Both the position numbers and the translations under genes were made by a program. A DNA stretch of 64,000 nt from a virus: positions 25,229-89,228 of the IMG/VR virus record IMGVR_UViG_3300050034_000403; one strand, 5' to 3'. The notes under the pieces were generated by a model, which did no database searches, was not told the DNA's origin, and saw only the letters and a program-made list of their open reading frames with translations. This document shows, piece after piece, positions 13,645 to 64,000 of this stretch; position 1 is the stretch's first letter; each line of letters opens with the position of its first letter.

Positions 13645-14034
13645 CTATCGTCCTTTCTCATACGCTTCTGCATGCAGATAGCTTTCGCGCCGCATTTTTG
13701 TCTTGTCCGGTCGATTGCCATACGATTCCAAATGTTGGCGCAAGAAGTCACGGTTCAGGTTATTCCGTGCGTTTGCCATCTGGTGGCGCATGTAGCTGCG
13801 CAAGTTGGCGCGGATGGGTCCTTCAATCATTTCTCGCTGCTCGTCTTCCATCTGGTACTTGTAGGCTTCCCACTTACGCATCCGTTCCGACCACACTTCG
13901 GCTTCATGCATGGTGTTGCAGACAATCTTTTCGAAACCCGCTGGTGCCGGGAACTGTTCAGGAAGGCCCATACGGATTTCGCCGCGAGTTCCATCGTGCC
14001 AAAACACGATTTTGGTTGCTAACTGTGCGTTCAA
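13645..14034 (-). CDS. Small protein coupled to terminase
   Basis: 129 residues from a TTG at 14034. That start overlaps the terminase stop as TTGA and has GGGAGG 6 nt upstream, better than an ATG at 14070. Sequence LNAQLATKIVFWHDGTRGEI, then LPEQFPAPAGFEKIVCNT and a charged helical C-terminus (MEDEQREMIEGPIRANLRSY). Phages of this type often have such a conserved protein between terminase and portal. Function unknown. Confidence 0.6.
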   Translation of the reverse strand: MNAQLATKIVFWHDGTRGEIRMGLPEQFPAPAGFEKIVCNTMHEAEVWSERMRKWEAYKYQMEDEQREMIEGPIRANLRSYMRHQMANARNNLNRDFLRQHLESYGNRPDKTKMRRESYLHAEAYEKGR

Positions 14035-16181
14035 TCGAGACCTCCCACAGAAACCATGTTCGAAGAACATACGGCTTTGCTCAACGGAGGTGCTTTCTCC
14101 GTTGGCAATGCATAGCGCTTTTGCGATCTATCCGCAAGAATGTCGAAATCGTGCGCAGTAAAGAAAGATTGCGCCGCAGCACGCACGCGATCATCATGCT
14201 GACCGCTGCGATGCTCCAACTTGGAAACTCTGCCAGCCGCTGCATGCCGCTCCAGCGTTTTCAACTCTTCAATTAACCATCTGGATGTCGGGCGATACCA
14301 GCCACCATTCACAGCTTCCGTAAAGCGCGTCATCAGGATTGGCACACTCCATACGTTGGAATACCAGCCCTGTTTTTTGCCAGAATCATCCTTGATCTTT
14401 TTGCTGTCGTAGCGACGTGGAACGTGATGCCAATGGAAGCCCATCAGCTTCAACTGGTGCTGGCATGTATCACCTGGTCTTCCGATCTGCTCCACGCAAA
14501 ACTTCACGCCACGTGGATCTTTTGCATTTTCGCCATACCAGGCGGCAATGCAAGCTGCAAATCCGACAACTTGTGCAGAGTTGATGCGGTTCGATACCAG
14601 CTCAGCCACCTGATAGTCATATTCATCGCCAAAACGGTTGCGCGTTACCGATACGCAGGTTCTGTCTTCATCCTCTTTGCCAAGACCATCTGCCGTGTCG
14701 ATGCCGCAACTGTAGGTGTATCCAGGGTTGGGCTCTTCATATACCAGCAGCTTGTCAAAGGTTTCCAGCTCCACATCTTCGTCAATCGGAAGGAGAGGAA
14801 CCAAAACCCAGTCATAGCGTTGTCCGCGATCCGATTTCCATGTCACGCGGATATGCGCTTTGTCGTAATCAATCAATGGCTCTGGTGGCTCAAAACCATC
14901 GTCGATGGAATCACCAGTAATGGCGTAGGCTTGCACCTGCTTCTTTCTTTCCTTGGTGTCGCCTTGCACTTCATAAATGTTGTCTTCGATCTCCTGAATC
15001 GTTTCCACATCGAACACGCTGTCATGCACACCTGTCAGCGCTTCATAGTCGTCAGCCGGCATCTGCGCAAGCCAAATCTTCTGACTGTGATTTTTGCAAG
15101 ATTTGGCGTAATTGAATTCCCAAAACCACTGCTGCTCCAGCGGCATCCGCCAATCTTTTCCAACAATCCGTGACAAAAACGGCGTATTGCGAATGTAGGA
15201 CTCGGCACGGATCACATGCTTGCGCGTTGCTTCCATGCGCTTCTTGTAAAAGTCTTCTGGAACCGGGAACTGACGAATCCATGCCTTTTCAGGGTAAAGA
15301 TCCGTCGCCATTGCCCAAGGAATAAATACAGGGCAAAGATCATGCAATCCTTTGGGGAAGTCTTCTTTCGCAGCGCGCCACGTCTCGGCCAACCAGCCGG
15401 TGTTTCCACCACCTGTGCCTTCAAACACCATGAAGAGGTTGGGAGTGGCGTGCGTGGCGCGCAACAGGCCTTCTTCAATCACCTTCTTAGGCTTGGGGAT
15501 ATCCGCCAACTCCGAAACGTGAATTAATGTGGGAGTCCAACCTTGCGCGATACCCGTTGCCTGCATACCAGATTGAATGGACAACACAGATCCGTTATCG
15601 AATGAGCCTTTGGGTCCACGGCGCGGCACCAGCCACCAGGGGCATTGGTTGTAGGCAATATCCAGGATGCGACCGATCAGCTCGGACTTATCCGACTGCA
15701 CCGAGGCCATCACAGCCTGAGTGTGCGGAATGAACAACATCCTTTGAAGAAACTTCAGAGCGGTTTTTGTGGTGATGCCCACCTGCCGCGCTTTCAAAAT
15801 CAAAAGGCGAATAGCAACTTGCTTTTCGTCGAAATCGGCGATTACGGAATCGAAAACTTCTTGCGATTTCCGGTTTTTGAATTTGAAAATCTCGCCGCCT
15901 TCGTTGCAGACGTAGGCGTAGCAATCGTCAAAGTAGTTGCTATCGAGGGCACACATCACCTGCTCGTTCTCTACCCACCGCCAAATTTCCTTTTGGCGCT
16001 TTTGCGTGATGGGACGCACAAGGGAGATATACGAGGACTTCGAGTTTGATTCGATTTTTACGATGGAATCGATGTAGTGCTTGAATTCTTCCACCTGGGC
16101 AAACGTATGAGGGGTAGGCATCCACCCCTCACGCGCGGCGAACTTGTCCAGGTTCTGTACGATAATCTTTTCGGAATACAT
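14031..16181 (-). CDS. terL: Terminase large subunit
   Basis: 716 residues. ATPase part: LLILKARQVGITTKTALKF (about 126-144) is the Walker-A-like segment, and LIHVSELADIP is Walker-B-like. FEGTGGGNTGW is a coupling-type segment. Nuclease part: YSCGIDTADGLGKEDEDRT supplies the first metal-binding Asp, FCVEQIGRPGD the middle acidic site, and RSGQHDDRVRAAA the C-terminal Asp pair. The protein packages DNA through the portal and cuts it. Starts 14 nt upstream of the 36-residue basic gene's stop side and overlaps the next gene by TTGA. Length is at the long end of the family. Confidence 0.92.
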   Translation of the reverse strand: MYSEKIIVQNLDKFAAREGWMPTPHTFAQVEEFKHYIDSIVKIESNSKSSYISLVRPITQKRQKEIWRWVENEQVMCALDSNYFDDCYAYVCNEGGEIFKFKNRKSQEVFDSVIADFDEKQVAIRLLILKARQVGITTKTALKFLQRMLFIPHTQAVMASVQSDKSELIGRILDIAYNQCPWWLVPRRGPKGSFDNGSVLSIQSGMQATGIAQGWTPTLIHVSELADIPKPKKVIEEGLLRATHATPNLFMVFEGTGGGNTGWLAETWRAAKEDFPKGLHDLCPVFIPWAMATDLYPEKAWIRQFPVPEDFYKKRMEATRKHVIRAESYIRNTPFLSRIVGKDWRMPLEQQWFWEFNYAKSCKNHSQKIWLAQMPADDYEALTGVHDSVFDVETIQEIEDNIYEVQGDTKERKKQVQAYAITGDSIDDGFEPPEPLIDYDKAHIRVTWKSDRGQRYDWVLVPLLPIDEDVELETFDKLLVYEEPNPGYTYSCGIDTADGLGKEDEDRTCVSVTRNRFGDEYDYQVAELVSNRINSAQVVGFAACIAAWYGENAKDPRGVKFCVEQIGRPGDTCQHQLKLMGFHWHHVPRRYDSKKIKDDSGKKQGWYSNVWSVPILMTRFTEAVNGGWYRPTSRWLIEELKTLERHAAAGRVSKLEHRSGQHDDRVRAAAQSFFTAHDFDILADRSQKRYALPTEKAPPLSKAVCSSNMVSVGGLD

Positions 16182-19627: not shown

Positions 19628-19715
19628 AACTTCGCTTCCCCACTTTGCGCATAACCTACGCCAGTCTTGGTTTTCTGTCTACTGTGATTTTTCATTGCGC
19701 AAGGATTGCGCTCAC

Positions 19716-19832: not shown

Positions 19833-20033
19833 ATGGCACGCATGACAATTGCACTTCCCGCTGAGATTGTAAAAATCGTCAATGACACTGCCCAAAAAGA
19901 GTCGGTTCCAAAAACAGAGATCATTCGACGTATGTTCACTGTGTTGAAGGTAGCCCAGGAAGAAAAAGACAAGGGGAACTCTCTTGGAATCATCAACGGA
20001 GAGAAGGTTATTGCCCGCATTGTTGGTGTATAA
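19833..20033 (+). CDS. Ribbon-helix-helix type DNA-binding protein
   Basis: 66 residues from ATG 19833 with AGGAG 7 nt upstream. MARMTIALPAEIVKIVNDTA followed by SVPKTEIIRRMFTVLKVAQE is the beta-helix-helix pattern of Arc/CopG-type proteins (a strand with alternating residues, then two helices). Likely a dimeric repressor acting on the adjacent control region. First rightward gene of the pair. Confidence 0.6.
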   Translation: MARMTIALPAEIVKIVNDTAQKESVPKTEIIRRMFTVLKVAQEEKDKGNSLGIINGEKVIARIVGV

Positions 20034-20038
20034 ACTTC

Positions 20039-20311
20039 ATGGAAAATGAGAACAAAGAAAAACCGATCATCGTCGATCTTGGCCAACGCGAAGACGTGCC
20101 TCGTCCTGAACTCGATCCACAAAAGCTATTGTCTTTTGCGCAGCAAATCCTGATGGTTTTAGTCTTTTTAATGTTTCTGGCTTGCGGGGTTTTATTGCGT
20201 TGGCCCGGATCAAAAGAAGCTCAAACCATCTTTGAACAAGCAAGAACGATTCTCCCGCCAATGGTGACGCTTGTTCTTGGCTTTTACTTTGGCGGTCGTC
20301 ATTCTCGATAA
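20039..20311 (+). CDS. Small two-helix membrane protein
   Basis: 90 residues, 5 nt after the ribbon-helix-helix gene. Two hydrophobic segments: FAQQILMVLVFLMFLACGVL (about 33-52) and ILPPMVTLVLGFYFGGRHSR at the C-terminus, with a charged N-terminus (MENENKEKPIIVDLG). Topology resembles small holins or inner-membrane accessory proteins. It is far from the endolysin (38.2 kb), so a holin role is only a guess. Confidence 0.55.
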   Translation: MENENKEKPIIVDLGQREDVPRPELDPQKLLSFAQQILMVLVFLMFLACGVLLRWPGSKEAQTIFEQARTILPPMVTLVLGFYFGGRHSR

Positions 20312-20323
20312 TTTTTCAGAACA

Positions 20324-20356
20324 GGAATAGCCTGTATGTCTTGTTCATGCGGGCTA
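20324..20356 (+). terminator. Terminator after the membrane protein gene
   Basis: GAATAGCC and GGCTATTC form an 8-bp stem with a 19-nt loop followed by TTTAT, just after the stop at 20311. Confidence 0.6.
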
Positions 20357-20409
20357 TTCTTTATCACTATTCAGAAATTTTCAGGGCAAAAAAGCTGAGC
20401 ATGGCTAAT

Positions 20410-21028
20410 GTTGCGTCTATTCGGCGCACTGTAGAAGCTGTTTGATTGTTGCGCTTATCCAGCGCACTATGACTATCTTGCAACCTTTTTATAGCCAAAA
20501 AGCCGTGATGATTCTCGTGTTGCATCTACTCGATGCACTGAAACTGCCTTGTGACTTTGTGCTATTCCTTGACGCGTTGCGCTTTCTCGGCGCACTCATA
20601 CGTCTATAAATATCCCTTGTGTATTATTGCGCTTATTCAGTGTATTGTTGCGCTTATCCAGCGCACTCCTACTTTGTCGCACATGTTGCATCTCTCCGAT
20701 GCACTTTGACTGTACACCCCTACCTATCCATGTTGCATCTGCTCGATGCACTCATACTGTGCTCCTCAACCTATCCATGTTGCGCCTATGCGGTGCACTG
20801 AAACCGCATTACTGCGAAATCCAAGGCTCACGTACGTTGCATCTTCTCGATGCACTTCAACCAGTCTGCTATACAGCAGACAAAAACGAATGCCAATGGA
20901 GGTTGCATCTGTTCGATGCACTCATACGGATTTGGTACGGGATGCTGTTGTTGCGCTTATCCAGCGCACTAGAACATCTTGTCAGCTCATTCTTCAGGTT
21001 GCGCCTGCTCGACGCACTCATATGACAC
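20410..21028. CRISPR. Array 1: degenerate CRISPR-like hairpin array
   Basis: At least 12 units at 20410, 20448, 20519, 20576, 20626, 20647, 20685, 20732, 20779, 20836, 20902, 20950 and 20998. Each keeps the 5-prime core (GTTGC, stem, 5-nt loop, stem, ACT) but most have lost the 3-prime tail. Start-to-start spacing is irregular (21-71 nt). Stems vary with compensation: TGCATC/GATGCA, TGCGCT/AGCGCA, TGCGCT/GGCGCA, TGCGCC/GGTGCA, TGCGCT/AGTGTA. Only 20448 and 20519 keep a full 37-nt unit. Open frames through it are artefacts. Reads as a decayed version of arrays 2-4. Confidence 0.75.
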
Positions 21029-21071
21029 CTCAATACTTTGCGCCAAGCCCCCGCGTTGTCAACAAATTTCT

Positions 21072-21599
21072 TTAGCTCCGCGATGCCAGAATTTTGGTTG
21101 CCTCAGTCAATGTAATCATAAGCGTTTGTGGATTGATCGGCGAAGCGATGAAGCCGTATTTCTCGTAGAACTGTTTTGCATCCTTAGAAATTGCATTTAC
21201 CAAAACCGCACGAATGCCGGCAATCTCAGCAGCCTGCAAAGTGCGCAAAACCGCATCCCGCAAAAGATCCGCCCCAATCCCGCGATGCTGAAAGTGTTCA
21301 TCCACAGCCAGTCGTCCGATCAGCATCACGGGCACTGGATCGGGCATGTTGCGCTTGATGCGTGTGGGTGCCTCGACATGTGCCACAGCACCAGTCGCCA
21401 GCGCATAAAAACCAACGACATGACCTTCTGAGCACACCACTTTAGTACGCGATGCTCCATTCTTCTCGTTTTGAAGTGCCCGCGTCTTCAACCACAGATT
21501 GAGAGATGATTCGCCACAGCAGAATTGCGTAAGATCATGTTCCACTGTCAGCTTTTCTGGAGCGGTAATACGGATCTTGGACGCCTCTACTCCTCCCAC
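21072..21599 (-). CDS. GNAT-family toxin (TacT-like acetyltransferase)
   Basis: 175 residues, GTG start overlapping the antitoxin end by 13 nt. Has GNAT features: FYALATGAVAHV, VMLIGRLAVDEHFQHRGIGA (acetyl-CoA-binding Q/R-x-x-G-x-G/A, here QHRGIGA), DLLRDAVLRTLQAAEIAGIR and KQFYEKYGFIAS. Toxins of this type acetylate the amino group of charged tRNA and stop translation. Partner DUF1778 protein precedes it. The pair borders array 1. Confidence 0.88.
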   Translation of the reverse strand: MGGVEASKIRITAPEKLTVEHDLTQFCCGESSLNLWLKTRALQNEKNGASRTKVVCSEGHVVGFYALATGAVAHVEAPTRIKRNMPDPVPVMLIGRLAVDEHFQHRGIGADLLRDAVLRTLQAAEIAGIRAVLVNAISKDAKQFYEKYGFIASPINPQTLMITLTEATKILASRS

Positions 21600-21871
21600 G
21601 ATGGTTTCCTCGCTAGCAGCTTTGCCAGTTTTGGGTTGGACTTGGGAGGATTGTCTAGCATGTCATTGAAGCGTTGGAACTCTTCTTTCCCGAGACGGAA
21701 GTAGCAGCGATCAAGCAAAATCGCTTCCGCTTCCCTGCACGCCGCATCCAGCATGAAATCCGTGCGGTTCCTTCCCAGCACTTCTGCTGCACTATCAATT
21801 AATGTCTTTTGCCGCAGATTGGCACGCAAATTGATGTTCGTAGCCCGCAATTCAGCAACGACAGAACCCAT
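21587..21871 (-). CDS. DUF1778 antitoxin
   Basis: 94 residues from ATG 21871, chosen for AGGAGG upstream. RATNINLRANLRQKTLIDSA and LGRNRTDFMLDAACREAEAI are diagnostic of DUF1778 ribbon-helix-helix antitoxins. The C-terminal tail (DMLDNPPKSNPKLAKLLARK) matches the part that wraps the GNAT toxin. Represses its own operon and blocks the toxin. Confidence 0.9.
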   Translation of the reverse strand: MGSVVAELRATNINLRANLRQKTLIDSAAEVLGRNRTDFMLDAACREAEAILLDRCYFRLGKEEFQRFNDMLDNPPKSNPKLAKLLARKPSWEE

Positions 21872-21933
21872 GACCCACCTCCTGAATGTATACACAATGA
21901 GCGTACAGCATCGTGCGCACAATGTAAAGCGCC

Positions 21934-22215
21934 TTAGTACAGCTTGCGGCAGTCATAACACCAGAACCCGTCAGGCCGCTGGAAACCCTTGTGCCCCTTG
22001 TCGTGTGGGCATCTGGCAAGGCCAGCAGGACTCGAATCCGCGACAGGCCGATTATGAGTCGGTTGCTCTACCGGCTGAGCTACAGTCCCGCTGTTCCACT
22101 TCCGCGTGCGACACTCGGGATTACGGCATTGCGCGGGTATCGGTTTACGAACGTCTACCGGCCAAAGATACCCACACACGTCGCATCGATATGCCTCCAT
22201 CTTAGTTTTGCCCAT
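21934..22215 (-). CDS. Zinc-ribbon protein containing a tRNA-like segment
   Basis: 93 residues. N-terminal ribbon AYRCDVCGYLWPVDVRKPIP followed by AQCRNPECRTRKWNSG is close to the product of 44628-44822 (CDVCG, then CWNRKCRSWRWNSG). The middle (GTVAQPVEQPTHNRPVADSS) is the translation of a tRNA-like sequence, a well-known spurious peptide. The C-terminal ARCPHDKGHKGFQRPDGFWC plus CRKLY adds Cys/His pairs. Either a real gene captured tRNA sequence in frame or the frame is read through a decayed tRNA. Operator palindromes lie directly upstream. Confidence 0.5.
   Translation of the reverse strand: MGKTKMEAYRCDVCGYLWPVDVRKPIPAQCRNPECRTRKWNSGTVAQPVEQPTHNRPVADSSPAGLARCPHDKGHKGFQRPDGFWCYDCRKLY
22014..22089 (-). 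tRNA. tRNA-like remnant with CAT anticodon, inside a reading frame
   Basis: Minus strand GGGACTG, TAGCTCAGCCGGTAGAGC (D-arm), CCGA-CTCATAA-TCGG (anticodon loop, CAT) and GATTCGAGTC (T-loop). The 3-prime side (TGGCCTT) does not pair with the 5-prime acceptor GGGACTG, and T-stem position 53 is A instead of G. Probably not a working tRNA; more likely a fossil or an integration scar. Confidence 0.4.
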
Positions 22216-22284
22216 GAGTAGATTCTACTCACCAGCCTGAGTAGAATCTACTCAGCACTACCACCATTTGAGTCGAGCCGACTC
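22216..22284. promoter_or_regulatory. Three tandem operator palindromes
   Basis: GAGTAGATTCTACTC at 22216-22230, TGAGTAGAATCTACTCA at 22238-22254 and GAGTCGAGCCGACTC at 22270-22284. All share GAGTMGA half-sites. They sit immediately upstream of the minus-strand zinc-ribbon gene, the first one touching its start codon. Fits a repressor that blocks this promoter; the repressor is not identified. Confidence 0.65.
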
Positions 22285-22348
22285 AGCATGCCATAAACAA
22301 TGCACACCGCAGTTCGTAAGCTGGCAGCTTATATCGTGCAGCACCGCG

Positions 22349-34964: not shown

Positions 34965-35176
34965 ACATGCAGATCATCTTGCGGCAACTCGACAGCGACG
35001 ACTTTGGAAAGATGCTGAAAGTCTGCAAAAGCTCACGCGAACGGTTTTACCTGGAAGCCGCGCGCATTAATCCAAACTTTGAATACCACATCGATCTGCC
35101 CGGCCCCGATGGCCCTACCAAACCCGTCGACATGCAAACGTGGCTTGCCGACAAAGAAAGGTTCCCCGACGACTGA
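34961..35176 (+). CDS. Hypothetical protein
   Basis: 71 residues MNMQIILRQLDSDDFGKMLK, then CKSSRERFYLEAARINPNFE. Coupled to the zinc-ribbon gene by a 4-nt overlap. No family. Confidence 0.5.
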   Translation: MNMQIILRQLDSDDFGKMLKVCKSSRERFYLEAARINPNFEYHIDLPGPDGPTKPVDMQTWLADKERFPDD

Positions 35177-35204
35177 GCAAAATGATGGCACAATGGGAGG
35201 TCAA

Positions 35205-35912
35205 ATGACGGAAAAAGTACACTTTCGCAAGGATCTGACAGGCAAAGTCTTTGGTCGGCTTACTGTAACGGGATACTCGCATCAAGCCGGAAAGTCATCG
35301 GTTTGGAACTGCCTTTGCGTCTGCGGAAATACGACTCAAGTTCGCCAAAGCAATCTTACGAGGGGCGGCGTTGTTTCCTGTGGTTGCCGCAGAAAAGAAA
35401 TTCAAAATCACATCAAGTTCTATTCTCCAGAATCTGCTCTTACGCATGGCTGCGCTCGCACACGGTTAGGAAAAAGGACTGCTGTCTATACGATATGGTG
35501 TGGGATGAAACGGCGTTGTTCTTCACCAAAATGCAAATGCTTTTCGTACTACGGCGGACGTGGAATCAAAGTCTGCAAACGATGGGAAAAGTTTGAAAAC
35601 TTCCTGGCGGATATGGGTAAGCCAAAACCGGGAATGACACTTGACCGCTTTCCGGATAAAGACGGCGATTATGAACCGACAAATTGCCGATGGGCTACAT
35701 GGAAAGAGCAGGCAAACAATCAACGCCCCCGTTCATTTTTCATTGACAAGCCTGAACATGCTGACATTTTGCAGAAAATCTTATCGCTGCACTCTTTGGG
35801 CAAAACTACCAGAGATATTGCAGACGTGCTGAATTCTATGAAAATTATGTCACCCCGTGGAAAATGCTGGTGGGGATCAGGCATTGATCGTATCTTGCGC
35901 AATCATCGATAG
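35205..35912 (+). CDS. Putative homing endonuclease with Cys-rich N-terminus
   Basis: 235 residues from ATG 35205 with GGGAGG upstream. N-terminal KVFGRLTVTGYSHQ and a zinc group WNCLCVCGNTTQV then GGVVSCGCRRKE. The second part has the signature YTIWCGMKRRCSS, FSYYGGRGIKVCKRW, FENFLADMGKPKPG, LDRFPDKDGDYEPTNCRWAT, seen in a widespread family of phage homing-endonuclease-like proteins. The C-terminus may be a helix-turn-helix (HSLGKTTRDIADVLNSM). Probably mobile. Confidence 0.7.
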   Translation: MTEKVHFRKDLTGKVFGRLTVTGYSHQAGKSSVWNCLCVCGNTTQVRQSNLTRGGVVSCGCRRKEIQNHIKFYSPESALTHGCARTRLGKRTAVYTIWCGMKRRCSSPKCKCFSYYGGRGIKVCKRWEKFENFLADMGKPKPGMTLDRFPDKDGDYEPTNCRWATWKEQANNQRPRSFFIDKPEHADILQKILSLHSLGKTTRDIADVLNSMKIMSPRGKCWWGSGIDRILRNHR

Positions 35913-35919
35913 GAGAAAA

Positions 35920-36600
35920 ATGGAAGCTGTTTCATATATGCGGTGTTCTGGCGAAAGCCAAGTTCTCGGCGATACGTGGGAACGTCAGCGCGCAGTTATC
36001 GTTAAATATGCCGCCGCCAATGAAATTGCAATTGTCGATGAATTCCGGGATGAAGGCGTAACAGGCAAGATGGAGTTGGAAGGACGTGCCGGTCTTTCAG
36101 CCTGCATACAATTCATCCGTGAAAAGGGAATCAAGCTTGTTTTGGTTGAGTCCAGCGACAGATTGGCCCGCGACATGATCGTGGCAGAAGTTGTTGTACG
36201 CGAGTTTCAAAAGATTGGAGTTCGCGTCATTTCTGCGTCTGGCGGTATCGATCTAACCGAGGGAGACGATTCCAACCCCACGGCTAAACTAATTCGTCAG
36301 ATTCTAGCGGCCGTCGCCGAGTTTGATCGCTGCGTAATCGTACTTAAGCTACGCGGTGCGCGCCAGCGCAAAAAGGCTAGGGGAGAACGAGGAGATGGCC
36401 GGCACGCCTTTGGAGAAAAGCCTGGAGAAGCCGTGGTTCTCGCACAGATTCGTGCGTTAAAGGCCCAAGGAGAGACGATCAGGACCATTGCCGACACCTT
36501 GAACGCCGCCGCCATTCCAACGCGCATGGGGGGCACCTGGAAGGCCGGGACGGTGGCAAAGATCCTTGCTCGTGAGAAATTTCACAGCGCTTGCGCGTGA
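35920..36600 (+). CDS. Serine recombinase (resolvase family), intact catalytic site
   Basis: 226 residues from ATG 35920 with AGGAG. Resolvase N-terminal domain: VSYMRCSGESQ has the catalytic Ser and Arg, LVLVESSDRLARD is the second conserved region, then AEFDRCVIVLKLRGARQRKK. C-terminal helix-turn-helix (IRALKAQGETIRTIADTLNA). Short relative to large serine integrases, so a resolvase or invertase. It directly precedes array 2, an arrangement worth noting. Confidence 0.85.
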   Translation: MEAVSYMRCSGESQVLGDTWERQRAVIVKYAAANEIAIVDEFRDEGVTGKMELEGRAGLSACIQFIREKGIKLVLVESSDRLARDMIVAEVVVREFQKIGVRVISASGGIDLTEGDDSNPTAKLIRQILAAVAEFDRCVIVLKLRGARQRKKARGERGDGRHAFGEKPGEAVVLAQIRALKAQGETIRTIADTLNAAAIPTRMGGTWKAGTVAKILAREKFHSACA

Positions 36601-36663: not shown

Positions 36664-37967
36664 GTTGCATCTATGCGATGCACTTCAACTGCATTGCTAC
36701 CGATATGGTAGCGCTGTCGCTACGGATTTCGCGTTGCACTTATCCAGTGCACTTCAACTGCATTACTACGCTGGTGGGTCCTTGTAAGTTGCATCTACGC
36801 GATGCACTCAAACTGCTTTGATGCTTGCTACCTTTTGGCACATTTCCATTTTTCCAGTAGTTGCATCTATGCGATGCACTGAGACTATTTTGCGACACGG
36901 AGTTGAATCAAGAAGCAATAAGCCTGTTGCATCTATGCGATGCACTTTGACTGCTTTGCTATCCCACTAATAAGCCTTTGCAGGATCATTTTCCCAGTTG
37001 CATCTGCTCGATGCACTTTAACTACCTTGCGACCATGTGAGAATGCTGGTGGCTCTCTCTTGACGAAGTTGCATCTGCTCGATGCACTCAAACTACATTG
37101 CGACACGGCTACGGAAGCCGTCTTGCTGCTGCTATGAATGTTGCATCTGTTCGATGCACTTTAACTACCTTGCGACGACTGTTTATGCTTTTGAACTCAC
37201 ACACTACGACCGTTGCATCTGTTCGATGCACTGAAACTACATTGCGACAGCAGAAAAAATCGAGAAATGATTCCGATACCATGTTGCATCTGCTCGATGC
37301 ACTGAAACTACCTTGCGACGAAACCTGGAAAACCTGTCCACCGGGACCGTAATAGTTGCATCTGCTCGATGCACTAAAACTATCTTGCGACGTTCGACTT
37401 CAGCCAAGAGAGACATGACCGCGAGTGTTGCATCTGTTCGATGCACTTAAACTATCTTGCGACCCTATAATTTGTCCAGACACTAGCGTCCACAACCGTT
37501 GCATCTGTTCGATGCACTGAAACTGCCTTGCGACGCATGTACTCCCAAAGCGTGTACTCTTGATGCAAGTTGCATCTGTTCGATGCACTGAAACTACATT
37601 GCGGCTTGGTGAGCCCTTGGAAAGTGTTAGCAGGTCATCAAGGTTGCATCTGTTCAATGCACTGAAACTATCTTGCGGCATGATCGAGCAGTTGAGCAAT
37701 ACAAGGTGCGATACGCGTTGCATCTGTTCGATGCACTTTAACTACCTTGCGACACGAAATTGCGGGACTCTTTTACCAGGTGATGGATGTTGCATCTGTT
37801 CGATGCACTGAAACTACATTGCGACCTAAACATCACCATGCAGGACAAGCTCGACCTCCAGTTGCATCTGTTCGATGCACTGAAACTACATTGTGACTCG
37901 CCACCTTCGGAAGAAACAAGAAGACCAGAAGTTGCATCTGTTCGATGCACTGAAACTACATTGCGGC
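36664..37967. CRISPR. Array 2: CRISPR-like array, 19 repeats
   Basis: 37-nt repeats starting at 36664, 36733, 36788, 36860, 36926, 36997, 37068, 37140, 37212, 37283, 37355, 37427, 37498, 37569, 37643, 37717, 37789, 37861 and 37931. The main form on the plus strand is GTTGCATCTGTTCGATGCAC followed by TGAAACTACATTGCGAC. Spacers are 33-37 nt and all different (two left-end ones are shorter). Period 69-74 nt. The left five repeats diverge (tails ending TTGCTAC or GATGC, and one with the compensated stem TGCACT/AGTGCA), while the right 14 are nearly constant. By usual CRISPR behaviour the leader is then on the right, and transcription would be leftward. No cas gene is nearby. Confidence 0.9.
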
Positions 37968-38103
37968 TGCGCTCATTATAACGCTTTGCGATTGAAGAAG
38001 ATCAAGGACGTTTTTCGCGAACCTCGCAAATCTGCGCTCTTCTAGTTGGGATGCTCGATACAATGCCCTCATTATCTCCTTCAAAATCATTTTCTTACGC
38101 CTT
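37968..38103. promoter_or_regulatory. Candidate leader of array 2
   Basis: 136 nt between the conserved end of the array and the terminator of the lysis unit. Moderately AT-rich with TTTTTCGCGAACC and CATTATAACGC. No coding frame. If the array is transcribed leftward, this is where its leader promoter should be. Confidence 0.4.
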
Positions 38104-41252: not shown

Positions 41253-41994
41253 GTTGCATCTATCCGATGCACTGCAACTGCATTGCTACGATGTCCATCC
41301 TAGCCAGTTTCCCATTGTTGGTTGCATCTACGCGATGCACTCAAACTACCTTGCGACCGGAGACTACGGTGTTGCCCACCCTGATCTAGTTGTTGCATCT
41401 GTTCGATGCACTTAAACTACCTTGCTACCCCACGCCCACGTTGCTTTGAAGCGGTTGCCGTTGTTGCATCTATCCGATGCACTAAGACTATCTTGCTACA
41501 CGTTTGCAGATTACCGTTATCGCATCTGGGGCGTTGCATCTATGCGATGCACTTTGACTGCTTTGTTACCTGGCAGTACACGCATGCGTGACAGTTCGAA
41601 CAGTTGCATCTACTCGATGCACTTCAACTGCTTTGCTACGAAGCGGATGTGCTATTCGCTGGGTATCTTAATGGTTGCATCTACGCGATGCACTCAAACT
41701 GCCTTGCGACCAAATGCTGGAATTTGTGAATGCAGCTTTAAAACGTTGCATCTGTTCGATGCACTTCAACTACCTTGCGACATTGACCGAAGGTCAAGCA
41801 ACTCATGCTAAGTACGTTGCATCTACTCGATGCACTGAAACTACCTTGCGACCAGCGAGACAGGTTCATCACTGGCGAGTCGTTGAAGTTGCATCTACGC
41901 GATGCACTCAAACTACATTGCGACCAGTATTTCGACCGCATGAATCGCTTTGCCATGGTTGCATCTGCTCGATGCACTTCAACTACTGGGAGTG
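41253..41994. CRISPR. Array 3: CRISPR-like array, 11 repeats
   Basis: Repeats start at 41253, 41321, 41392, 41463, 41533, 41603, 41674, 41745, 41816, 41888 and 41958. Period 68-72 nt, spacers about 33-35 nt. Core GTTGC, stem TGCATC/GATGCA constant, loop variable (TATCC, TACGC, TGTTC, TACTC, TATGC, TGCTC). Tail ACTTGC.AC varies between GCGAC and GCTAC. The last repeat loses its tail at about 41983. Frames through it (for example 41675-42139) are translation of repeats, not genes. Confidence 0.9.
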
Positions 41995-57314: not shown

Positions 57315-58592
57315 TTAGGCGGCGGGAATTTCTCGCGTTGCTTTATTGCGGCACTCGTCCAAAAAATCTGCCCAGGCTTGCATCATTTGTCGACGCGGTT
57401 CAAGATATTGCGCATAGTTGTAAGCCTGTGAAACCGTATCGCCAGCTCCAGAAACATGGGAAAGTTGCGTTTCAATGTGAAGATGATTGAAACCTTTCTC
57501 GTGCAGATAGGTCGATGCAAGACCTCGCCATCCATGCCCTGTCATCGTCCGATGATAGCCAAGGCGTTTCAGCGTATGCAGCAGGATGTTGCTGCAGATC
57601 GTCTTTGATGCGTGGCCACCAATACTCGGAAACATATATTCTCCAGAACCAGAGAGTTCGTAGAGTCGCTTGAACGCATCAAGACTCTGCCGCGAAAGTG
57701 GAACCAAGTGCGCTCTCTTTTCCTGTCTCCTGCCTTTCATCCGTTGCGGAGGAATAGCCCACAGCTTTTTTTCCCAATCGATTTCTTCCCAGCGTCCAGA
57801 AAGTAATTCTGTAGTACGCAAGAAGGTCAGACTCATCAGTTTCAGAGCAAGACACGTCACGGGATAGCCGGTGTTTTGATCCATCTTCTGAATTAGAGCA
57901 GGCAATTCAGAGAGCGAAATACGCGCAAAATGCCCTTTCACGGTTCTGGAAAGAATGTCCTCTGAACGGATACTCGTGGCGGGATTCAGACTGTTCCCGT
58001 CCAATATTCCATTATTCTGCCCCCAGGTAAAAATCTGCCGAATCGTCTGCAAATTGCGTCGAGCACTATCATGTGAACCCCGATCATCTGTTGCTCTAAT
58101 CGCATCCACAATATCCAGGCGCTGGATGTCTTCCGGGCGCATTTTACCAAGTCGCGGAATCGTATCGCCTTCCAGCCGACGTTGAACTCTATCGATATAC
58201 TTTTGGTTTTTGTCGTTTTTCCACCAAGCAAACCATTGCCGCGCCAGATTTTCAAAGTTCGGCTCGGTCGCTGTCTTTTTTTTCTTCGCAGCCAGCGCTT
58301 CTCGCAGCTCATGCTTGGCTTCCTGGCGCTCTGCCATAGGATCGGTGCCAGCGGCCAGCTTTGCCCGCGCCTCGGCGTGGAGGAGCCGTGCCTGGGCCAA
58401 AGATACGTCAGGATATTTGCCAAAGGCCATTTGCTTCTGCTTGCCTTCACAGCGGTACTTCCAGCGCCACAGCTTTCCACCAGTCGGTGCGATGAGCAAA
58501 TGAAGACCGCCGTGGTCAAAAATCTTGTAGGGCTTGGGCTTAACCGCTGCCTTTTCACACTGCAAGTTTGAAAGTTCACCCACTATTTTCAT
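57315..58592 (-). CDS. int: Tyrosine recombinase, P4-type phage integrase
   Basis: 425 residues from ATG 58592, chosen for AAGGAACAGG upstream; a longer start at 58703 is unlikely. N-terminal DUF4102 domain: LQCEKAAVKPKPYKIFDHGG, LHLLIAPTGGKLWRWKYRCE, MAFGKYPDVSLAQAR. Catalytic residues: FLRTTELLSGRWEEID (Arg), MTGHGWRGLASTYLHE (His-x-x-Arg), LSHVSGAGDTVSQAYNYAQY (His and nucleophile Tyr). P4-type enzymes usually integrate into tRNA or tmRNA genes. Places the phage among temperate ones. Confidence 0.95.
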   Translation of the reverse strand: MKIVGELSNLQCEKAAVKPKPYKIFDHGGLHLLIAPTGGKLWRWKYRCEGKQKQMAFGKYPDVSLAQARLLHAEARAKLAAGTDPMAERQEAKHELREALAAKKKKTATEPNFENLARQWFAWWKNDKNQKYIDRVQRRLEGDTIPRLGKMRPEDIQRLDIVDAIRATDDRGSHDSARRNLQTIRQIFTWGQNNGILDGNSLNPATSIRSEDILSRTVKGHFARISLSELPALIQKMDQNTGYPVTCLALKLMSLTFLRTTELLSGRWEEIDWEKKLWAIPPQRMKGRRQEKRAHLVPLSRQSLDAFKRLYELSGSGEYMFPSIGGHASKTICSNILLHTLKRLGYHRTMTGHGWRGLASTYLHEKGFNHLHIETQLSHVSGAGDTVSQAYNYAQYLEPRRQMMQAWADFLDECRNKATREIPAA

Positions 58593-58931
58593 GATTTCTA
58601 CCTGTTCCTTCTCCCCGATGGCGTATTGGGGGCACACCGCATGAGTCAAAGTGTACCAAAAAATGCCCCCAGAAAAGCGCCGTTTACAGATGATCGTCCC
58701 CAACTCTCCTAAACGCTAATGATTCAAAAAGTCGATAGGCAAAAAGGAGAAATCCTTTGTTCTAAATGGGTTAGAAGGGTAAAAACAGGGGAGAAACGTC
58801 GAGATAAGTTTAGATTATATATGTGGAGTTGTGTCCTACCACGGAATACTTAGAACGAACAAAACAAAGGACTTATTCCTTGCTTTTTAAGAAGTGCCCC
58901 CAAAAATGTCCCAGCATCGGATTTTCTTTCA

Positions 58932-63392: not shown

Positions 63393-64000
63393 GTTGCATC
63401 TATTCGATGCACTAAAACCGCATTGCTACGGTGGAATGTCCACTTCTTCGTCAGACGTATACAGTTGCATCTATCCGATGCACTAAAACTGCGTTGCTAC
63501 AATAATCTCCCAATGGAGTGGGAACCCGACTATGTTGCACTTGTCCAGTGCACTAAAACCGCGTTACTGCATCGGCTTTTTGTATTTCTCCGTGTTGACG
63601 ACAGGTTGCACTTGTCCAGTGCACTAAAACTGCGTTGCTACGCCTGTCCATAAAGAATAAGCCTGAGGACATTAAGTTGCACTTGTCCAGTGCACTAAAA
63701 CTGCGTTGCTACGCCCAATGTCTCCGATGATGCTCTCTGGACGAACGGGTTGCACTTGTCCAGTGCACTAAAACTTCGTTGCTACGAGGTGCCGAGATGG
63801 GCAAAGACAACATTTATGTGGTTGCATCTATCCGATGCACTAAAACTTCGTTGCTACCACCCAAGATGGTGAACACCGATGGGCGCTCCACCGTTGCATC
63901 TATGCGATGCACTAAAACTGCGCTGCTACCGTCTCAGACCGTTACAGGCATCAACGTATAAATGTTGCACTTGTCCAGTGCACTAAAACTACGTTGCTAC
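63393..64000. CRISPR. Array 4: CRISPR-like array, 9 repeats visible and continuing
   Basis: Repeats start at 63393, 63464, 63534, 63605, 63676, 63749, 63821, 63893 and 63964; the last ends exactly at the window edge. Period 70-73 nt, spacers 33-36 nt. Two stems alternate within one array: TGCATC/GATGCA with loops TATTC, TATCC and TATGC, and TGCACT/AGTGCA with loop TGTCC. Tail mostly AAAACTGCGTTGCTAC. Both bases of the stem change together, so the stem is under selection. Confidence 0.9.

Follow-up and report, generated by a model that had tools for sequence, protein, structure and literature searches.

With moderate confidence, the cluster of hairpins here called array 1 is regarded as a secondary, leaderless and compacted array of a phage type V system with a Cas12m-like effector, still able to encode crRNAs. 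It lies in a window of 64,000 nt (the whole stretch of DNA that was analysed), i.e., bases 25229-89228 of an IMG/VR virus record of 89,228 bases, the contig labelled G000. The terminase large subunit, the major head protein, the integrase and RecT encoded on this contig identify it as a phage, which is probably temperate, and Cas12 relatives (48-61% identity) encoded on three Acidobacteria MAG contigs suggest a host among the Acidobacteria. The following features are referred to (window coordinates, except for the last):

14031..16181, minus strand: terminase large subunit (phrog_2, 1.6e-8)
20410..21023, minus strand (crRNA sense taken as minus): array 1, 12 hairpin units (26-nt cores)
20619..20661, no strand: 21-nt tandem duplication (Tandem Repeats Finder), source of a false 13th unit at 20626 and of a 21-nt spacing
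20682..20783, no strand: two diverged 47-nt tandem units, each a hairpin plus a 21-nt guide (tandem-repeat search and sequence)
21072..21599, minus strand: GNAT acetyltransferase resembling the toxin TacT, immediately preceding array 1 in the minus sense (Pfam PF13508, 1.7e-10)
21587..21922, minus strand: TacA-like antitoxin (Pfam PF08681, 2.9e-24)
36664..37967, minus strand: array 2, 19 units, 37-nt repeats, period 70-74 in its regular part
37975..37980, minus strand: TATAAT, upstream of the first array 2 repeat in the minus sense
38016..38025, minus strand: leader motif GAGGTTCGCG (minus sense), with another copy about 137 nt from array 2
41253..41986, minus strand: array 3, 11 units, period 68-72
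57315..58703, minus strand: tyrosine integrase (Pfam PF13356/PF00589)
63393..64000, minus strand: array 4, 9 units, incomplete because the contig ends here; the same array stands behind cas12 in the relative G3
contig 1554-1981, outside the window: left array

The hairpin core follows the pattern GTTGCRYY-N5-RRYGCACT, which has 58 matches on the contig, falling into five clusters, versus none for a reversed-pattern control. In array 1, the hairpins start at 20410, 20448, 20519, 20576, 20647, 20685, 20732, 20779, 20836, 20902, 20950 and 20998, with spacings of 38, 71, 57, 71, 38, 47, 47, 57, 66, 48 and 48 nt. All 12 are detected by a covariance model built without array 1 at E values up to 1, ten of them at 0.02 or better. 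A degenerate lone repeat at window position 19705 falls short of E 1 with the same model. The initial annotation had counted about 13 units with spacings down to 21 and 38 nt. The hairpins are indeed real and far beyond chance, and the spacing of 38 nt was found again, but the unit at 20626 and the spacing of 21 nt go back to the tandem duplication, which copies part of the 20647 hairpin and leaves the flanks of the copy broken (ATTGC...GTATT); this pseudo-unit was left out of all unit counts because it would give a gap of 0.

The stems of array 1 are paired at 95.8% of 72 cells, and both 5-nt hairpin flanks are intact in all 12 units, both being features that selecting units by pattern favours. 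Matched changes on both sides of the stem occur in 13 cells, at three pair positions, compared with 5.7 (sd 2.2) in shuffles, none of 500 shuffles being as high. Concerning the array 1 core, GTNNNAGTGC...GCAAC, the G at -26 is kept in 10 of 12 units and the T at -25 in 11. The tails, described previously as mostly lost, were compared, at a 95% null, with a reference set of 52 regular tails from this lineage. Their loss proved uneven: in seven units, the outer 11 nt score at background, and in the other five they exceed the null (clearly at 20448, 20519 and 20779, barely at 20836 and 20902), whereas the inner 5 nt, beside the hairpin, exceed it in nine (all except 20410, 20647 and 20998). The two 47-nt units share their first 10 guide nt and differ at 4 of the other 11; that all four mismatches lie outside the first 10 nt has a chance of about 0.055 (post hoc, own arithmetic).

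With spacings of 38-71 nt and a mean repeat identity of 0.59 over 37 nt, array 1 lacks the fixed spacing and near-identical repeats of a CRISPR array. Arrays 2-4 come closer to such regularity, with a 37-nt repeat, e.g., GTTGCATCTGTTCGATGCACTGAAACTACATTGCGAC, spacers of about 34 nt (mostly 33-37 nt) and mean repeat identities of 0.83-0.86. The longest runs common to adjacent repeats are 5-10 nt in array 1 and reach 33 and 37 nt in arrays 2 and 4. A coding role of array 1 was rejected, as the plus-strand ORFs across it are out of step with the spacings. By blastn, no matches were obtained for array 1 in INPHARED or for array 2 in PLSDB, and only chance-level ones for array 2 in INPHARED; an Rfam scan returned nothing but a tRNA. 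Two further observations concern the neighbourhood of the arrays: an inverted repeat at window positions 22215-22254 has perfectly matching 17-nt arms, TGAGTAGATTCTACTCA / TGAGTAGAATCTACTCA, spaced 6 nt apart, and serine recombinase reading frames (35079-36600) adjoin array 2.

Relatives were gathered from IMG/VR by the hairpin pattern and also by protein. A cas12 gene is present in seven of the 13 phage records tested (G3, G5, G9, G10, G12, G13 and G14), and in all seven an array stands behind it on the same strand, either directly (G3, G5, G9, G10 and G12, the arrays of G5 and G10 being practically the same) or after cas4-cas1-cas2 (G13 and G14). The latter genes lie between cas12 and the array at L110:860-2804 (G14) and L111:860-2804 (G13); all three are named by Pfam in G14, whereas in G13 cas1 and cas2 were identified by genome search and cas4 is presumed from an ORF of the same length in the same place. 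On the window's own contig, tblastn with eight Cas12s detected no cas12, neither Cas1 nor Cas2 was found, and PADLOC on its 74 ORFs gave no Cas among the 25 of 100 families listed. Cas genes in the same element are thus found via relatives, including G3. This phage has arrays 2 and 3 in common with the window, in a region more than 99% identical, as well as the distal spacers of array 4, and about 100 nt separate the end of its cas12 from array 4. Since the window's contig stops inside array 4, the cas12 of this phage probably lies just beyond the contig end. No Cas12 was found in INPHARED, and PLSDB gave only TnpB-like and other weak matches.

Solitary repeats were noticed in two relatives. 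One, at L045:10269-10297 (plus strand, G3), scores 33.5 bits (E 8.6e-8); it runs in crRNA sense on the cas12 strand and stops about 24 nt before the conserved start codon of cas12, a place where G12 has a whole array. This solitary repeat may be a 5' element for autoregulation, or else what is left of an array upstream. The other, a full repeat at L077:11500-11536 (plus strand, G5; 44.7 bits), lies where an ORF encoding a C5 cytosine methylase domain begins.

Eight distinct Cas12 proteins are readable as a whole (726-771 aa), seven of them 48-63% identical to the protein of G3. Their assignment to the Cas12m family is based on PADLOC, PDB sequence and Foldseek matches. PADLOC ranks Cas12u1 (V-U1, now V-M) and Cas12f about equally, at 1e-22 to 1e-31 (Cas12u1 at 7e-23 to 1.5e-29, one Cas12f model similarly), and Pfam reports a Cas12f1-like TNB domain; the best PDB sequence matches are Cas12m. 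For the AlphaFold model of the G3 protein, which is of middling quality (pLDDT 70.3, pTM 0.40), the top four Foldseek matches are all Cas12m (1.6e-18 to 5.8e-16, TM 0.23-0.31), as are the top four rows of VIA (Z 14.8 to 12.9), where model residues 120-727 align over 399-443 residues at an rmsd of 15-19, too large for the domains to be superposed as a single body. The RuvC triad is D-E-D in six of the eight proteins and E-E-D in two, a glutamate replacing the RuvC-I aspartate at L091:2907-5144 and L093:10004-12265. Residues 1-120 (L089:10001-10360), predicted to be mostly strands, remain outside all Cas12m fold matches.

Most likely, the hairpin serves the Cas12m-like protein of the phage as a handle on its crRNA. 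In minus-strand reading, the 3' part of the repeat comprises A(-21), G(-20), the arm U(-19) to C(-14), the loop, the arm G(-8) to A(-3), A(-2) and C(-1). According to the available text on the Cas12m2 structure (PMC10442227), a flipped A(-24) is followed there by a non-canonical G(-23):A(-2) pair and by a 6-bp helix of C(-22)-C(-17) with G(-8)-G(-3), C(-1) is read base-specifically, nt -36 to -30 of the crRNA are disordered, and the guide duplex measures 17 bp. Compared with this published text, the repeat matches position for position from the 3' end, with a loop 3 nt shorter; the A, the predicted 6-bp helix, the putative G:A pair and the terminal C of a V-M handle can all be read in it. A pseudoknot partner of the Cas12m2 type in the 5' part of the repeat, sought in six registers over 239 distinct repeats, did not rise above shuffles. 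For GoCas12m, PMC11013384 describes a crRNA of approximately 50 nt, to which the repeat contributes approximately 30 nt.

Concerning the strand, the initial annotation had deduced plus-strand RNA from G-U pairs in the stems at 20410, 20576, 20626 and 20779. These pairs are correctly described for the plus strand, but 20998 presents the reverse case. Among the 12 true units, three of four wobble pairs are plus-strand (the false unit at 20626 adds two more), and over 315 distinct units there are 13 wobbles on the plus strand versus 17 on the minus strand, so that wobbles are uninformative on strand. Since the array follows cas12 on the same strand in all seven records, the crRNA sense was taken as minus; cas12 and array strands agree with it in 7/7. 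TATAAT precedes the first repeat by 7 nt in array 2 and by 9 nt in the left array. The motif GAGGTTCGCG, with one mismatch allowed, is located within 150 nt upstream in the crRNA sense in 9 of 31 arrays, compared with 0 of 31 on the opposite strand there and 2 of 31 behind the array, a test that is partly circular because the motif was first noticed in the same sequences. Cas12 orientation, leader motif and TATAAT boxes thus all contradict the plus-strand deduction. Array 1 itself has neither leader motif nor TATAAT, and no minus-strand promoter-like site passed the scan there. As tacA-tacT immediately precedes it on the minus strand, and as no minus-strand terminator-like site was found in window 20000-22300, read-through is possible, and we infer that array 1 is transcribed on the minus strand.

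Over 284 spacings of distinct units in 12 phage records, the gap between hairpins is never below 16 nt. Spacings below 66 nt number 21, and the six smallest gaps (16, 17, 17, 18, 18 and 19 nt) come from three lineages (array 1, G7 and G4). Two guide gaps in array 1 are only 17 nt, or 12 nt if the inner 5 tail nt must stay. For these counts, units were allowed no more than one mismatch in their 10 flank bases, by which rotted hairpins elsewhere are undercounted, and units identical over 57 nt were counted once; under a null of uniform gaps, such a floor has a rough probability of 1e-4. A looser scan yielded seven closer pairs, each with one imperfect member in a tail, in a spacer or over a spacer-repeat joint. 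The floor of 16 nt is close to the 17 bp of the guide duplex in Cas12m2. As to targets, the best matches of spacers in 10 phage contigs are 16 nt long, which by our own arithmetic is about chance level, and three leader-proximal 22-mers matched only their arrays of origin in IMG/VR.

These observations would fit an array pared down to the needs of the crRNA, with a minus-strand unit of the form 5'-GTNNN-A-G-(6-bp hairpin)-AC-guide-3', in which Cas12 would hold the hairpin handle and the guide would follow directly. The outer 11 nt of the repeat would be dispensable for use of the guide (the matching 5' end is disordered in Cas12m2) and would be free to go once spacer uptake stops; they may serve uptake or trimming, for which array 1 would no longer need them. 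Probably read through from the tacA-tacT operon, the minus-strand transcripts would be cut by Cas12 near the handle, so that handle plus guide could load. By analogy with Cas12m, the loaded complex would then bind and block its target DNA; we accordingly presume that array 1 crRNAs load, and silence rather than cut the target. The unlike repeats should recombine little, freezing the guides, a weak suggestion drawn from degenerate CreTA repeats, which resist recombination in a haloarchaeon (available text of PMC9458426). Between phages, unit changes are seen in arrays 2 and 4: array 2 has one unit fewer and one different spacer compared with G1, and of the array 4 spacers some recur in G3, others being different there. 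These cases are too few, and too confounded by the identical block around array 1, to link repeat unlikeness to array stability.

The main rival is plain decay, i.e., a dead old array that loses pieces by small deletions, its remainder being too young to have mutated; the hairpins would then merely look kept because deletions that remove hairpins are invisible. Such decay agrees with the lack of a leader and of a clear promoter, with the seven outer tails at background, and with irregular units present also at the old ends of other arrays. The array 1 site is known from only two other contigs (G2 and L115), and about 7.5 kb around it are identical in all three, so no selection can be read there; for this reason an argument from the identity of array 1 between contigs was withdrawn. 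No more distant relative with an array at this site was found. Decay is difficult to reconcile, however, with ten flank bases intact in every unit, with the compensated stem changes, with the absence of gaps below 16 nt among 284, and with the lack of any array 1 spacing above 71 nt that could conceal a rotted hairpin, and we consider it unlikely, though a serious contender. In the acidobacterial MAG contig L096, whose cas12 is split over two frames (128-2731), three hairpins with decayed tails stand behind that gene at regular 72-73 nt spacing; plain decay, as in this contig, looks different from array 1.

An own function of the hairpin, as proposed initially, is retained insofar as the hairpin survives where other parts of the unit are lost, and keeps its pairing through compensated changes, but a crRNA handle suits it better than the decoy for host Cas processing that had been suggested. 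As an RNA anti-CRISPR, array 1 would titrate a host or rival Cas protein. Solitary repeats in phages can act as Racrs (available text of PMC10651486), and hairpins that outlast their tails would suit this role; a Racr, however, is a single repeat without a guide, matching a host repeat, whereas the 12 tandem units of array 1 leave room for a guide (16 nt or more) between them, the phage lineage encodes a Cas12 itself, and a pattern scan of genome_contigs yielded no such repeat in host genomes. The decoy is thus very improbable. Still less credence is given to hairpins of a plus-strand RNA, or sites bound by a protein, that have nothing to do with CRISPR: the wobbles within array 1 lean towards the plus strand, but those of the family do not, and the evidence on strand given above favours minus. 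The compacted, crRNA-encoding array remains the preferred reading.

Among known systems, type V-M (Cas12m; MmCas12m2, GoCas12m) is the most similar in protein, fold and handle, and shares a single effector beside an array. Differences exist in the length of the phage Cas12s (around 600 aa in type V-M), the approximately 120 N-terminal residues outside the fold match, the 5-nt hairpin loop, the several arrays per phage and cas4-cas1-cas2 in two phages. As far as the available texts of the following sources go, the degenerate repeats of CreTA / CreA (PMC9458426) likewise keep what the effector needs; yet CreTA works with Cascade (type I), involves an RNA toxin and has one or two repeats, compared with 12 units in a phage. 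A CreTA guide is expected to match the promoter of a linked toxin in part; beside array 1, the neighbouring pair is tacA-tacT. The CRISPR systems of huge phages (Cas12j/CasPhi, PMC7162821) equally comprise a phage-borne type V effector of about 750 aa near arrays; by fold ranking, however, that effector belongs to another Cas12 family, and the compacted secondary array is found here. Racrs (PMC10651486) have CRISPR-repeat hairpins in phage genomes in common with array 1. Phage-borne type V systems and multi-array phages were already known (PMC7162821, PMC12607003), and V-M has been noted in prophages (PMC11656645); sets of the cas4-cas1-cas2 type are, according to surveys, nearly absent from CRISPR-bearing phages (PMC7162821, PMC12607003). 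In the accessible portions of the open-licence literature, we found no report of Acidobacteria phages with Cas12m or a type V system like this group, nor of an array trimmed to handle plus guide.

Tentatively, and with more doubt than conviction, it may be proposed that phages freeze useful memories in this way: an array would shrink to what a crRNA covers, namely some 21-26 nt of handle and some 17-24 nt of guide, while the repeat portion that serves only uptake or trimming would be discarded and the repeats would diverge against recombination. Such arrays, along with the solitary repeats that closely precede cas12 and a DNA methylase gene, might then make the Cas12m-like protein a programmable regulator of itself, the host or rivals, and not only an agent of immunity. 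The analysis brings to light a group of phages, linked to Acidobacteria, whose genomes each hold several arrays; two of the records include cas4-cas1-cas2. If the preferred reading is true, array 1 constitutes a natural deletion experiment, according to which the hairpin and about 5 nt would be needed for guide use and the outer 11 nt only for acquiring or trimming, and the natural guide floor of a type V-M-like system would be 16-17 nt; trimmed arrays would represent natural designs for compact, recombination-resistant multiplex guides.
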